Below, piece by piece: positions 10,878-61,212 of a DNA stretch of 64,000 nt. The translations under genes were made by a program, and so were the position numbers. The DNA is taken from positions 1,302,001-1,366,000 of the forward strand of contig NZ_CP151997.1 of the NCBI RefSeq assembly GCF_038595005.1. The letters run 5' to 3'. Numbering within the stretch: position 1 is the first letter of the stretch; the number at the start of each line of letters is the position of its first letter. Below the pieces are notes generated by a model that saw only the letters and a program-made list of their open reading frames with translations, made no database searches and had not been told where the DNA came from. The stretch is from Chryseomicrobium sp. FSL W7-1435 (GTDB lineage Bacteria > Bacillota > Bacilli > Bacillales_A > Planococcaceae).

Positions 10878-10999
10878 TTTAGATGTGGAGAACGTCATGC
10901 TAGAAAGTCCGAGAAAATCAGGCGTGCCAAGTGAGGCGTTCTTGGCCTCGGTTGGAGCGACTGCTTTTGGAGCGTCTTTCTGACGTTCGCAACTCGATT
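10878..10999 (+). repeat. Internal module shared with the 60.9-61.2 kb tandem array
   Basis: 122 nt from TTTAGATGTGGA to AACTCGATT. The reverse complement of each unit at 60912-61212 matches in order: TTTAGATGTGGA, AATCA-GCGTGC, GAGGCGTTCTT-GCCTC, GCGA-TG-TTTT, TTTCT-ACG, AACTCGATT. A hairpin GAGGC-N7-GCCTC lies at its centre, extended by CCAA/TTGG. Confidence 0.8.
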
Positions 11000-11133: not shown

Positions 11134-12267
11134 TTATTGCAACGCTGTACGAAGTGTTTCGATATTGCGCTCCATAAGAGTTAAATAGTTTTCTTCATTA
11201 GCAATATCTTCATCGGTTAGGACGCCTAAGTTATGAAGCGGAAGCGTTTCAGCTCCAACTTCACTACGAATGATGTCTGTAAGTTTAGAAGATACATTTT
11301 GCTCAGTTAAAATATAGTCAATTTGTTGTTCGCGTGCTTGATCTACAAGTGATGCCAGTTCTTTTTGTGAGGGTTCATCTTGAGTGCTGATTCCTGCTAC
11401 CGCTACTTGATTTAAACCATAATCTTTAACCCAGTACCCAAATGCTGCATGGGAGACAAAGAAGGTATCACGATTTGCTTCTGCTACAACTTCTTCAAAC
11501 GATGCATCAAGTGCTAGAATATCTTCTTCTAGAGCTGCAAAGTTTTCATTAAAGAACTCTTCGTTCTCAGGTGATGCTTCAACTAACTCATTGCGGATTG
11601 ATTTAGCAAGCTCAACACTCAATGTTGGTGAAATCCATAAGTGAGGATCAAGTGCTCCGTGATCATGTCCAGCGTGAGAGTCTTCTGAATGACCTTCTTC
11701 AGCGTGCTCGTCTTCTGAGTGACCTTCTTCGGCGTGCTCGTCTTCTGAATGACCGTCTTCAGCGTGTTCGTCTTCAGAGTGGCCATCCTCAGCATGTTCG
11801 TCTTCCGAATGACCCTCTTCAGCGTGCTCGTCTTCCGAGTGACCTTCTTCAGTGTGTTCGTCAGCCGAAGCATCCACTAACATGTCATCTGAAATAAAAT
11901 CAGCAAGCTCTACGATTTCGACTTGTTGATTGGCTAATGTATCCTTAGCGCTTGAAATGAAGCTCTCTAGCCCAAGTCCAATGGCGAATAAGCGATCTGC
12001 ATCCGCGAACTTAATCATGTCTTGTTGAGAAGGCTCAAATGTGTGCTCATCTGCTCCTGGAGGATAGACGGATTCAACTGTGACAAACTCTCCTCCGATG
12101 CGTTCAGTAAAGTATTCAAGAGGATAAACTGTTGTATAAACAGACAGTGTTTCCACTTCCGGTTGAGCGTTGTCTTGTGCTTGTTGCGGGGTAGTTTCTT
12201 CTTCAGAAGAACAAGCTGCTAAAGTTAACGCAGTAGCTGCGAGAAAAGGGATGGCAAATTTTTTCAT
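11134..12267 (-). CDS. znuA: Zinc ABC-transporter substrate-binding lipoprotein (ZnuA/AdcA family)
   Basis: Extracytoplasmic metal-binding protein, 377 residues. The signal peptide carries lipobox LTLAAC with the lipidated cysteine at residue 19. The cluster A-I fold is suggested by VYPPGADEHTFEPSQQD, LDPHLWISPT, FVSHAAFGYW and ILTEQNVSSK. Residues 136-195 are six copies of a decapeptide DEHAEEGHSE, followed by SHAGHDHG, forming the long His/acid-rich loop typical of zinc-specific members. A Zur-type box overlaps the leader. No ABC permease or ATPase gene is adjacent, so it works with a transporter encoded elsewhere. ATG 12265-12267 follows AGGAGG. Confidence 0.92.
   Translation of the reverse strand: MKKFAIPFLAATALTLAACSSEEETTPQQAQDNAQPEVETLSVYTTVYPLEYFTERIGGEFVTVESVYPPGADEHTFEPSQQDMIKFADADRLFAIGLGLESFISSAKDTLANQQVEIVELADFISDDMLVDASADEHTEEGHSEDEHAEEGHSEDEHAEDGHSEDEHAEDGHSEDEHAEEGHSEDEHAEEGHSEDSHAGHDHGALDPHLWISPTLSVELAKSIRNELVEASPENEEFFNENFAALEEDILALDASFEEVVAEANRDTFFVSHAAFGYWVKDYGLNQVAVAGISTQDEPSQKELASLVDQAREQQIDYILTEQNVSSKLTDIIRSEVGAETLPLHNLGVLTDEDIANEENYLTLMERNIETLRTALQ
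11683..11862 (-). repeat. Six 30-bp tandem repeats coding the His-rich loop
   Basis: Exactly six in-frame 30-bp units encode residues 136-195 (DEHAE[E/D]GHSE). Codons differ at several positions between units (GTGCTCGTC/GTGTTCGTC on the plus strand), so they are not all recent copies. The length is likely to vary between strains by unequal crossing-over. Confidence 0.92.
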
Positions 12268-13197: not shown

Positions 13198-14418
13198 ATG
13201 CTTACATTTCGAGATCTAACAAATAGAAGGGTTAACTTATCCTTTGAAGCACAAAACTTCACAACAGAGTCACGTCATGTGCTGGTTATTGTGAGAAAAG
13301 GGACAAAATTTTTAGTGACTCAACATCCAGCGAGGGGACTTGAATTTCCGGGTGGCAAGGTTGAAGAAGACGAAAATTTAGAACAAGCAGCTATTCGAGA
13401 GGTTTACGAGGAAACTTCTGTTCATATAGGGAATGTGCAGTGGTTGGCTGCTTATGAAGTGCTAGGTGATGAACCATTTGTTAAAACCGTGTTCTTGGCA
13501 GAGTGTACTGGCAGTGATTCATTTGATGGTTTGTATGAAACTACTGCTAGAAAGTGGTTGACACTACGTGAAATCGAACGTCACCCCAAGCTGAGTTTTT
13601 ATATGAAAGATGAAGGCATGAAAGCGATGATTGCTGAGGTAAAGAAGAGATTTCCTCTCTATGCTAAGCATCCGATTCCAAGTCCGAATTCTCAAGTAAA
13701 ACTTTTTGAGGTTACCTATTATTCAGATGAATTTTTGGTGAAGGGATGGCTTGCTGAGCCGAAGCTAGGAGCAGATCAAGCCATTGTTTATTTGCGCGGC
13801 GGTATTAATCAAATCGGTAAAGTGCGAGGGGCCCGCATCGCACAAATTGCAGCGCAAGGATTTACAGTGTTTGCTCCTCATTACCGCGGCTCATTTGGTG
13901 GGGAAGGTAAAGATGAATTCGTTGGTGCAGACCGGCAAGACGTTTACAGTGCAGTGGACTATTTGGCTTCCCTCGGCTATTCGAAAATTCATTTGTTTGC
14001 GTTTAGTAGAGGAGGCATTATGGCGCTTTGGGCTGCTATCAAACGTCCAGAGGTCACGTCCCTTGTTACATGGGGCGGTGTGTCGTCTATTTATCTCACA
14101 TATAAAGAGCGTGTCGACATGCGCCGGATGATGAAACGCATTTACGGCGGTACACCTAAAAAGGCACCAGATGCCTTTCAAAATCGTGATGCTCTACTCC
14201 ACTTGCATCAAGTAAAGGCACCTGTTCTCATCATTCATGGAGTTCAGGATACAAATGTTGGATTTGAGCATGCCACGATTTTAGAGGAAAAGTTGCAAGC
14301 TTTGGACAAAAAGGTAACTACACGGTACTTAAAAGACCATCATCACTTTGTTCCAGATCCGTTAAATCGTCAGCTGCTAGGGGAAGCGCTAGATTGGATG
14401 CGAGCGCAGGGGGACTGA
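13198..14418 (+). CDS. Nudix hydrolase (YtkD-like) fused to an alpha/beta hydrolase (YtmA-like)
   Basis: A 406-residue, two-domain protein. Residues ~1-155 resemble YtkD, a Nudix nucleotide pyrophosphatase; the Nudix box GGKVEEDENLEQAAIREVYE with EET is at 52-73. Residues ~165-406 form an alpha/beta hydrolase resembling YtmA, with nucleophile S270 in FAFSRGG, acid in HGVQDTNVG and histidine in DHHHFVPDP. In B. subtilis these are separate genes. ATG 13198 is chosen over TTG 13162 because the homologous N-terminus starts there and AGAAAGG precedes it. The linker KRFPLYAKHPIPSPNSQ joins the domains without a frameshift. The combined function is unknown. Confidence 0.85.
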   Translation: MLTFRDLTNRRVNLSFEAQNFTTESRHVLVIVRKGTKFLVTQHPARGLEFPGGKVEEDENLEQAAIREVYEETSVHIGNVQWLAAYEVLGDEPFVKTVFLAECTGSDSFDGLYETTARKWLTLREIERHPKLSFYMKDEGMKAMIAEVKKRFPLYAKHPIPSPNSQVKLFEVTYYSDEFLVKGWLAEPKLGADQAIVYLRGGINQIGKVRGARIAQIAAQGFTVFAPHYRGSFGGEGKDEFVGADRQDVYSAVDYLASLGYSKIHLFAFSRGGIMALWAAIKRPEVTSLVTWGGVSSIYLTYKERVDMRRMMKRIYGGTPKKAPDAFQNRDALLHLHQVKAPVLIIHGVQDTNVGFEHATILEEKLQALDKKVTTRYLKDHHHFVPDPLNRQLLGEALDWMRAQGD

Positions 14419-14538
14419 GCGGACGTTCATGGGATGAAATTGGAGTTTCATGAGATGAGATGGAGGTTTCATGAGACGAAACCAAGATTTATTCGACATA
14501 ATTGAATTTTAATGAGACGAAGTCGTTTTATGGAAACC
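14417..14538 (+). repeat. 122-nt modular element, copy C1
   Basis: Head GAGCGGACGTTC, then modules of 21, 21, 21 and 20 nt beginning ATGGGATGAAA, ATGAGATGAGA, ATGAGACGAAA and TTCGACATAA, and tail ATGAGACGAAGTCGTTTTAT followed by GGAAACC. The same head, tail and module spacing recur at 39371-39491 and 60778-60900 on the other strand. The head overlaps the stop codon of the preceding gene by two bases. Confidence 0.85.
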
Positions 14539-14556
14539 AATCCACTTCGATTCACC

Positions 14557-18016: not shown

Positions 18017-18306
18017 AATGCCCGCGGAAACAGATTCAGTGCCCGAGAAACTTGATTCAATGCCCGCGGAGTCGGTCCAATGCCCGCGGAAACAGATTTA
18101 ATGCCCGAGAAACTTGGTTCAGTGCCCGAGTAACTTGGTTCAGTGCCCGCGGAGTCGGTCCAATGCCCGCGGAAACAGATTCAGTGCCCGAGAAACTTGA
18201 TTCAATGCCCGCGGAGTCGGTCCAATGCCCGCGGAAACAGATTTAATGCCCGAGTAACTTGGTTCAGTGCCCGCGCAAACAGATTCAATGCCCGCGCAAC
18301 TAAATT
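18017..18306 (+). repeat. Tandem array of fourteen 20-21-nt units
   Basis: Fourteen units each start TGCCCG and belong to a few types: GCGGAAACAG, GAGAAACTT, GCGGAGTCGG, GAGTAACTT and GCGCAA. The order shows a higher-order pattern (A-B-C-A-B-D-C-A-B-C-A-D). Read on the minus strand a unit is TCGGGCACTGAATCAAGTTTC, which aligns with TTGGACATAACGGATGGTTTC of the element at 39371-39491. The array fills the gap between metK and ytoA. It can be read through in one frame (repeated QCPR), but there is no ribosome site, so I do not call a gene. It is not CRISPR: there are no spacers. Confidence 0.9.
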
Positions 18307-18325
18307 CTCCCCCGAAAAAATCACT

Positions 18326-39351: not shown

Positions 39352-39370
39352 GTGGGTGGGGGATGGATTA

Positions 39371-39491
39371 GTTTCCATAAAACGACTTCGTCTCATTAAA
39401 ATTGGATTATGTCGAATAAACGGTGCTTTATGTCCAAGAAACCATCCGTTATGTCCAAGAAATCACGATTTCATCCGATGAACGCCCGCTC
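39371..39491 (-). repeat. 121-nt modular element, copy C2
   Basis: Read on the minus strand: head GAGCGGGCGTTC, modules starting ATCGGATGAAA, TTGGACATAA, TTGGACATAA and TTCGACATAA (21, 21, 21, 20 nt), tail ATGAGACGAAGTCGTTTTAT followed by GGAAAC. The last module and tail are nearly identical to copy C1; the middle modules differ in their core word. Confidence 0.85.
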
Positions 39492-39505
39492 AACCACCTC
39501 CAATA

Positions 39506-60753: not shown

Positions 60754-60777
60754 TTTGGAAGGAGACAGGTTGTAATT

Positions 60778-60900
60778 GGTTTCCATAAAACGGCTTCAGA
60801 TCTACAAATACGTTTACTTGTTCTAGAAAGTGAGTTACTTGTCTTAGAAATCGAGTCACTTGCCTTAGAATTTATAGTACTTGTTCCAGAACGGCCGCTC
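60778..60900 (-). repeat. 123-nt modular element, copy C3
   Basis: Read on the minus strand: head GAGCGGCCGTTC, four 21-nt modules starting TGGAACAAGT, TAAGGCAAGT, TAAGACAAGT and TAGAACAAGT, tail TAGATCTGAAGCCGTTTTAT followed by GGAAACC. Head and tail match copies C1 and C2, but all module core words differ from theirs while resembling each other. Confidence 0.85.
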
Positions 60901-60911
60901 AGTTTGTAGAG

Positions 60912-61212
60912 TGGCGTTCTCCACATCTAACTCAATCGAGTTCCGAACGCCTTCCACATCTAACGCAGTCGAGTTGCAGGCGTTAGAAATACATTCAAAA
61001 ATCAATCGTACCCACAGAGGCAAAGAACGCCTCTATGTGCACGCTTGATTCCCGAAGCATTTCTGGGCGAACGCCTTCCACATCTAACCGTAATCGAGTT
61101 CCAGGCGTTAGAAATACATTCGAAAATCAATCGCACCCACAGAGGCAAAGAACGCCTCTATGTGCACGCTTGATTCCCGAAGCATTTCTGGGCGAACGCC
61201 TTCCACATCTAA
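60912..61212 (-). repeat. Tandem array of ~124-nt units
   Basis: Two nearly identical units start with CGCCTTCCACATCTAA at 60948 and 61072 (periods 124 and 125); a partial third begins at 61197, and a shortened one lies at 60912-60947. Each has a hairpin GAGGC-AAAGAAC-GCCTC. On the minus strand a unit runs from TTTAGATGTGGA to GAACTCGATT and is homologous to the module at 10878-10999. Together with the adjacent modular element it fills the 537-nt gap between the 62-aa gene and rpsD. Open frames here are short and lack ribosome sites. Confidence 0.9.

Follow-up and report, generated by a model that had tools for sequence, protein, structure and literature searches.

Dispersed intergenic elements of Chryseomicrobium combine a 21-nt module array with a terminal copy of the dif XerD arm

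We analyzed a window of 64,000 nucleotides from the chromosome of Chryseomicrobium sp. FSL W7-1435 (genome G000), in which an initial annotation had described three short elements as members of one family, with fixed ends and repeated modules between them. All three were found at the positions given, and their heads, tails, and module spacing agree with that description (Table 1). Measured from the start of the head to the end of CGTTTTATGGAAAC, elements 1 to 3 are 122, 122, and 123 nt long. The head of element 1 contains TGA, the stop codon of the upstream gene, and the same is true at the orthologous locus of C. aureum (L168). The tail resembles a module word in its own right, at a spacing of 19 nt. 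The window also holds a second dispersed repeat family of ca. 125 nt (AGATGTGGAAGGCGTTCG...AACTCGATT...), with an internal hairpin, which often stands immediately before an element head, as well as a 15-nt periodic repeat (12 copies) that probably belongs to a coding sequence and specifies an acidic stretch of low complexity.

Table 1. Coordinates of the elements and of associated features (window positions unless a genome or locus is named; heads are given counting the preceding T)
Feature	Position	Strand	Sequence or content	Remarks
Element 1 (dialect A), head	14416..14428	+	TGAGCGGACGTTC	
Element 1, array	14429..14527	+	21-nt modules ATGGGATGAAA, ATGAGATGAGA, ATGAGACGAAA, TTCGACATAA, ATGAGACGAAG	Lag 21, identity 0.61
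Element 1, tail	14528..14540	+	TTATGGAAACCAA	dif XerD arm with T to C at last base, then AA
Element 2 (dialect A), head	39480..39492	-	TGAGCGGGCGTTC	
Element 2, array	39381..39479	-	21-nt modules TTGGACATAA (twice), TTCGACATAA, ATGAGACGAAG	Lag 21, identity 0.63
Element 2, tail	39368..39380	-	TTATGGAAACTAA	Exact dif XerD arm plus AA
Element 3 (dialect B), head	60889..60901	-	TGAGCGGCCGTTC	
Element 3, array	60789..60888	-	21-nt modules TGGAACAAGTA, TAAGGCAAGTG, TAAGACAAGTA, TAGAACAAGTA, TAGATCTGAAG	
Element 3, tail	60776..60788	-	TTATGGAAACCAA	XerD arm with T to C at last base, then AA
Repeat family of ca. 125 nt	60964-61087, 61089-61212, 10878-10999			Also precedes elements in L002, L008, L009, L014, L017
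15-nt periodic repeat	11629-11899			
14-module 21-nt array	18018..18316		GATTCAATGCCCGCGGAAACA; ATGCCCGCGGAAACAGATTCA	No XerD tail; between two terminators
Other tail-less 21-nt dialect	L251, G000 C1:2577415; L117 upstream region		TCTAACGACGCAAAT / ATTTGCGTCGCTAGA	Two species
Array-less XerD half-site	L133, G000 C1:1506967; orthologue L164 (G001)			Kept in both species
Block of ca. 45 nt upstream of dif	L134, L117, L098, L186, L187, L189, L192, L193, L203, L206, L207, L211		TCTCA...AAGTATACT...AATGAAAC	
Half-site clusters, other genera	G015 C1:1881440-1894615; G191 C6:43396-85832; G194 C1:4431542-4523965; G155 C1:330914-432761		TTATGTAAACTAA	
RAYT-like genes	L307, L311, L308, L312, L309, L310			

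A search for further copies in this genome and in its relatives showed that the window elements belong to a repeat superfamily restricted to Chryseomicrobium. The relaxed tail 13-mer TNATGGAAACYAA gave 48 copies in G000, 61 in C. aureum (G001), and 7 and 13 in two other genomes of the genus (G020 and G038), compared to 0 or 1 per genome for its reversed control across the four genomes (0 in G000). Leaving out dif itself, coding matches, and an array-less copy at one locus (L133 and its orthologue L164), about 46, 57, 5, and 11 elements remained, respectively. The head-gap-tail pattern had 11 exact matches in G000 versus none for reversed-pattern controls. These genome-wide statements are based on pattern searches together with individual genome stretches. 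The family is confined to near relatives: in a search of 250 genomes of the order, genomes from outside the genus had at most 8 tail copies, and no tail excess was detected among 196 other genomes of the family or among the 246 others of the order search. Likewise, no 21-nt arrays were found in 4 × 100 kb of other genera, and the exact tail pattern had no match in viral contigs. In a collection of named genomes, the tail pattern matched C. aureum DSM 105437, C. excrementi ET03, and Tetzosporium hominis VT-49; the remaining matches were isolated ones in unrelated taxa. The earlier remark that no named family has this design holds in that we found none matching.

Most tail copies follow a 21-nt array, with 4 to 5 modules per copy at a strict 21-nt pitch. 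Averaged over all dialects, self-identity was 0.475 at lag 21, compared with a background of ca. 0.25, and lag 42 gave a further peak. Seven of the eight non-coding periodic arrays in 400 kb chosen regardless of the elements had a lag of 21, and six of those seven carried the tail. The module words sort into at least eight dialects: A (TTCGACATAA/ATGAGACGAA), B (TAGAACAAGTA), C (TTTGTGCCCTGAG), D (ATTATGACATTA), E (TTAACGMCCGA), F (GGCAATTGTGTCGGGAG), G (TTCTACCGAA), and H (TTAGCCATAATT). Both ends had been thought to be fixed, which proved correct for the tail, TTATGGAAACTAA, common to every dialect, but not for the GAGCG head, present only in dialects A, B, G, and H and missing from C to F. 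Elements are 121 to 123 nt long in G000 and either about 102 or 123 nt long in C. aureum, that is, the number of modules varies. Arrays with the same 21-nt pitch, in other dialects and without the tail, occur as well: one of 14 modules inside the window and another in two species (Table 1).

The established role of XerD is to resolve chromosome dimers at dif. The dif of the genus is an array-less 28-bp site, ACTTTAGATAA TATATA TTATGGAAACT followed by AAT, kept in all four genomes; it lies in a convergent gap beside parC, and in G000 the GC skew flips sign at this point (1.705 Mb). Its layout equals that of Bacillus subtilis dif, given as ACTTCCTAGAA TATATA TTATGTAAACT in the table of PMC2410131. 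The tail of the elements is the right, XerD-binding arm of the genus dif plus two bases (AA), an identity that holds in the four genomes. Many tail copies, including two of the three in the window (elements 1 and 3), read TTATGGAAACC and not the exact arm. Elsewhere in the family, the homologous dif loci of other genera keep an upstream flank (AAGTATACT...AATGAAAC...AACTTCC) and read TTATGTAAACTAA, with TTATGTAAACT as the XerD arm, as in B. subtilis. Since these loci carry the T form, it was Chryseomicrobium that changed T to G in its XerD arm. The genus-specific G is found both in dif and in nearly all element tails, and TTATGTAAACYAA appears only once or twice per genome within the genus. 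Conservation upstream of dif goes beyond the 28-bp site, as a block of ca. 45 nt is kept across the family.

The 17 nt before the tail match dif at 0.33, versus 0.28 in controls, and the TATATA center is not recognizable, so the elements carry half a site. A complete Xer recombination site (XerC arm, 6-bp center, and XerD arm) was therefore rejected, the XerC arm being absent. XerC and XerD were the only tyrosine recombinases found in G000. One XerD half-site without an array of its own is kept in both G000 and C. aureum, and in G000 an inverted class A array adjoins it (L133). Sister genera have a few TTATGTAAACTAA half-sites, clustered in one region (ca. 100 to 200 kb, as judged from listed coordinates and not by statistics) and resembling XerD sites near the terminus.

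The orientation of the elements is not random. They had been placed downstream of genes or terminators, and the tail side indeed faced the 3' end of a gene in 93 of 118 copies, versus 56 of 110 background gaps; divergent gaps were rare (6/118 versus 25/110). Where a terminator was detected, the tail lay 11 to 92 nt from the terminator T-run of the neighboring gene; the terminator detector of the gap survey was too strict for its counts to be used. From tail coordinates and the GC-skew origin, tails in G000 point toward ori in a ratio of 33:15, a bias probably due to gene orientation. The elements are spread along the whole chromosome of G000, with only one copy within 200 kb of dif. They are dispersed in C. 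aureum too, yet several copies are near dif there, including two at 11 and 39 kb, so that avoidance of the terminus, which holds in G000, was discarded as a general rule.

To describe how arrays behave, we compared copies within and between genomes. Among within-genome pairs, 185 of 211 shared stretches stopped at +10 to +19 from the tail start (a descriptive figure, as the pairs are not independent), while left ends varied, their limits often shifting in module-sized steps. Recent copies stop at the tail as well, as illustrated by L101 and L151 (94% identical from -337 to +15) and by the L178 pair (-104 to +15). Between species, orthologous intergenic sites often carry different dialects before one tail and one right flank, with the combinations A/C, A/B, C/E, D/C, A/G, B/G, B/D, D/G, E/F, and B/H. 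Right-flank homology started between 0 and -13 of the tail in five of these swap pairs (A/C, -7; D/C, 0; A/B, -10; C/E, -13; A/G, -10). Boundary data alone do not separate a dialect swap from independent insertions at one place; where both ends match, independent insertion at a single point is unlikely. No clean target duplication was seen at sites occupied elsewhere but empty in G000. Two pairs of stretches (L112 versus L156 and L149 versus L005) were 94 to 98% identical between G000 and C. aureum, compared with about 80% at most loci, which may reflect either recent transfer or strong constraint.

The initial annotation had also suggested that modules are copied within an element, and module-pair identities spoke against this. 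For class A, to which elements 1 and 2 belong, identity was higher between modules that occupy one position in separate elements (0.594) than between the modules of a single element (0.478), and the latter did not exceed random pairs of the class (0.486); the corresponding values for class B (element 3) were 0.72, 0.667, and 0.671. Homogenization within elements was seen only in dialects G and C (for G, 0.627 versus 0.513), and within-element copying was rejected as a general rule. Between species, the two ends and the first module of the array are alike at L003/L075 and at L006/L168, while the middle modules belong to the dialect of each species. Words are therefore common to many elements by dialect and are not copied within one. 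Module words are, in fact, dialects shared across the genome, which the module-pair identities show directly for A and B.

In order to put these elements into perspective, we compared them with known systems. Like dif and the plasmid multimer-resolution sites cer and psi, they have the XerD arm at an outer end and, like the accessory sequences of cer and psi, ca. 100 bp extra on the XerC side; unlike them, they lack a recognizable XerC arm or TATATA center and are chromosomal in 5 to 57 copies. Integrative elements (IMEX: CTXphi, TLCphi, and GGI) and pdif modules also use a dif-like arm as a junction for DNA exchange, but they have a complete dif-like site, carry genes, and insert at dif or between pdif sites, whereas our elements are gene-free half-sites located away from dif. 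REP/REPIN sequences are dispersed intergenic repeats of genomes with RAYT genes, and RAYT-like Y1 transposase genes are present in all four Chryseomicrobium genomes (two in G000, two in G001, and one each in G020 and G038). However, the elements are direct-repeat arrays without a consistent hairpin and not imperfect GTAG/GTGG palindromes beside a RAYT gene. Several of these transposase genes have palindromes of another kind (GGTGCCTGTCACC / GGTACCTGTGCACC) in their flanks instead of 21-nt arrays, and mobilization by RAYT was dropped on these grounds. Plasmid iterons share the 4 to 5 direct repeats, the pitch of about 21 bp, and the family-specific words, but the replicon here is a single-contig chromosome, with no rep gene noted beside the elements among partly annotated neighbors; a single dialect used as the query retrieved nothing related from a plasmid collection.

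The element words presumably differ from those of boxA, boxB, and boxC, the comparison being one of plan. In pneumococcal BOX repeats (PMC3049150), which are likewise small and intergenic, the ends are fixed and the middle modules vary in number, as found here, although our elements have 21-nt modules, many dialects, and a XerD arm as one end, and no stable RNA fold was found. As for XerD half-sites (XDS), through which SMC is reportedly unloaded at the B. subtilis terminus (Karaboja et al. 2021, as cited in PMC12322038 and PMC13220808), the likeness lies in the arm of the host dif plus AA without a XerC arm, in the many copies per chromosome, and in the TTATGTAAACTAA clusters of sister genera. 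In contrast, the Chryseomicrobium elements are genome-wide and do not cluster around the terminus in G000 or C. aureum, end a phased 21-bp array, adjoin gene ends, and have dialects. The anatomy is BOX-like in plan and cer/psi- or XDS-like at its end, and it lacks what defines dif, IMEX, or REP. A limited search of the non-subscription literature found no paper joining XerD half-sites with intergenic repeats, and there is a minority chance that this is something categorically new.

The reading that we favor, to which the sequence comparisons lend about an even chance, is that each of these non-coding, scattered elements provides an XDS-like half-site for XerD, accompanied by a helically phased accessory array that is exchanged in place. 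The tail is a copy of the XerD arm of the host dif (TTATGGAAACT plus AA), of the half-site type that clusters near the terminus in sister genera, and its identity to the arm and covariation with it suggest that host XerD (RipX) most likely docks there. On the XerC side of the arm stand 4 to 5 modules of one of at least eight dialects, the 21 bp corresponding to two helical turns. Additional protein most likely sits on these phased modules, be it weakly bound XerD or some other partner. The two-turn pitch points this way, as does a weak register common to all dialects (TTTT..GMCM..AA), to which the XerD arm conforms better than most shuffles do (36 of 5,000 were equally good), although the resemblance of modules to the arm is modest and dialects D and E individually lack it. 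Copies would exchange or homogenize their upstream arrays in place, and the XerD arm would be the junction that stays fixed. The swaps would be driven by recombination in or close to the arm, with XerD cleavage, RecA conversion, and transposition as candidate drivers. Several considerations count against this reading: the elements occur all over the genome, although the terminus is where XerD sites reportedly act; no XerC arm precedes the tail; two of the three window tails depart from the exact arm; copy number differs widely between congeners; and the conserved end of any mobile unit would give equal tail boundaries.

That last consideration leads to lineage-specific selfish or MITE-like repeats, for which the XerD half-site would be a fixed terminus, spread by transposition (Xer-mediated, one-ended, or through a trans-acting transposase) with no gain for the host. 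Dispersal in many copies within one genus fits them, as does a copy number that ranges from 5 to 57 within the genus, in keeping with a selfish or neutral repeat of one lineage; so do the sharp right end and variable left end of the recent copies (L101/L151 and the L178 pair) and the RAYT-like genes in four genomes. Still, we regard this account as rather unlikely, given that there are no terminal inverted repeats or target duplications, that G000 has no dedicated tyrosine recombinase, that the RAYT-like genes are flanked by GGTGCCTGTCACC-type palindromes and not by these arrays, and that orthologous sites keep the tail position while the array changes.

Alternatively, the elements may be genome-wide XDS-type XerD sites with a role in chromosome organization, whether by unloading or blocking SMC or by forming a fence behind terminators, the arrays acting as affinity or spacing modules. 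The tail resembles the half-sites clustered in sister genera, RipX/XerD is needed for SMC unloading at ter in B. subtilis (as cited in PMC13220808 and PMC12322038), and orientation is non-random, both toward ori in G000 and toward gene 3' ends. Against this, the distribution in G000 is the opposite of the expected terminus cluster, the copies near dif in C. aureum leave no pattern shared between species, and copy number varies widely, which makes this proposal, judged from sequence, unlikely. We find it equally improbable that these are neutral satellite-like tandem repeats, grown by intergenic slippage and homogenized by gene conversion, with the dif-arm match as a functionless frozen founder sequence. 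The existence of tail-less 21-nt arrays, the variable module number in C. aureum, and the homogenization of dialect G within elements would be expected of such repeats, but not a nearly invariant tail while words drift, a length held constant in G000, a strict pitch with one register in all dialects, or a biased orientation. Finally, structured or regulatory 3'-UTR RNAs or heptapeptide-repeat open reading frames, to which proximity to gene ends, 21 nt equaling seven codons, and a frame kept open in some dialects might point, were dropped as very improbable, since Rfam had no match at the three window elements at the gathering threshold, fold z-scores of both strands were mostly near 0, with about -1.7 as the most extreme value, and each reading frame is interrupted in at least one dialect (class A frame 0, open in 0 of 11).

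Returning to dispersed XerD half-sites with exchangeable arrays, an extended form, which we put forward tentatively and consider unlikely, is Xer-anchored array exchange, in which host XerD would mark dozens of intergenic half-sites where interchangeable dialect arrays are swapped. If so, whole chromosomes would switch dialect between species while the anchor positions persist. The dialect swaps at fixed anchors offer a traceable system for the exchange and homogenization of intergenic repeats, and the 46 to 57 scattered dif XerD arms behind phased arrays near gene ends amount to a natural experiment on XerD docking away from the terminus. If XerD does bind the tails, the genus would have spread a signal that is normally linked to the terminus throughout its genome.
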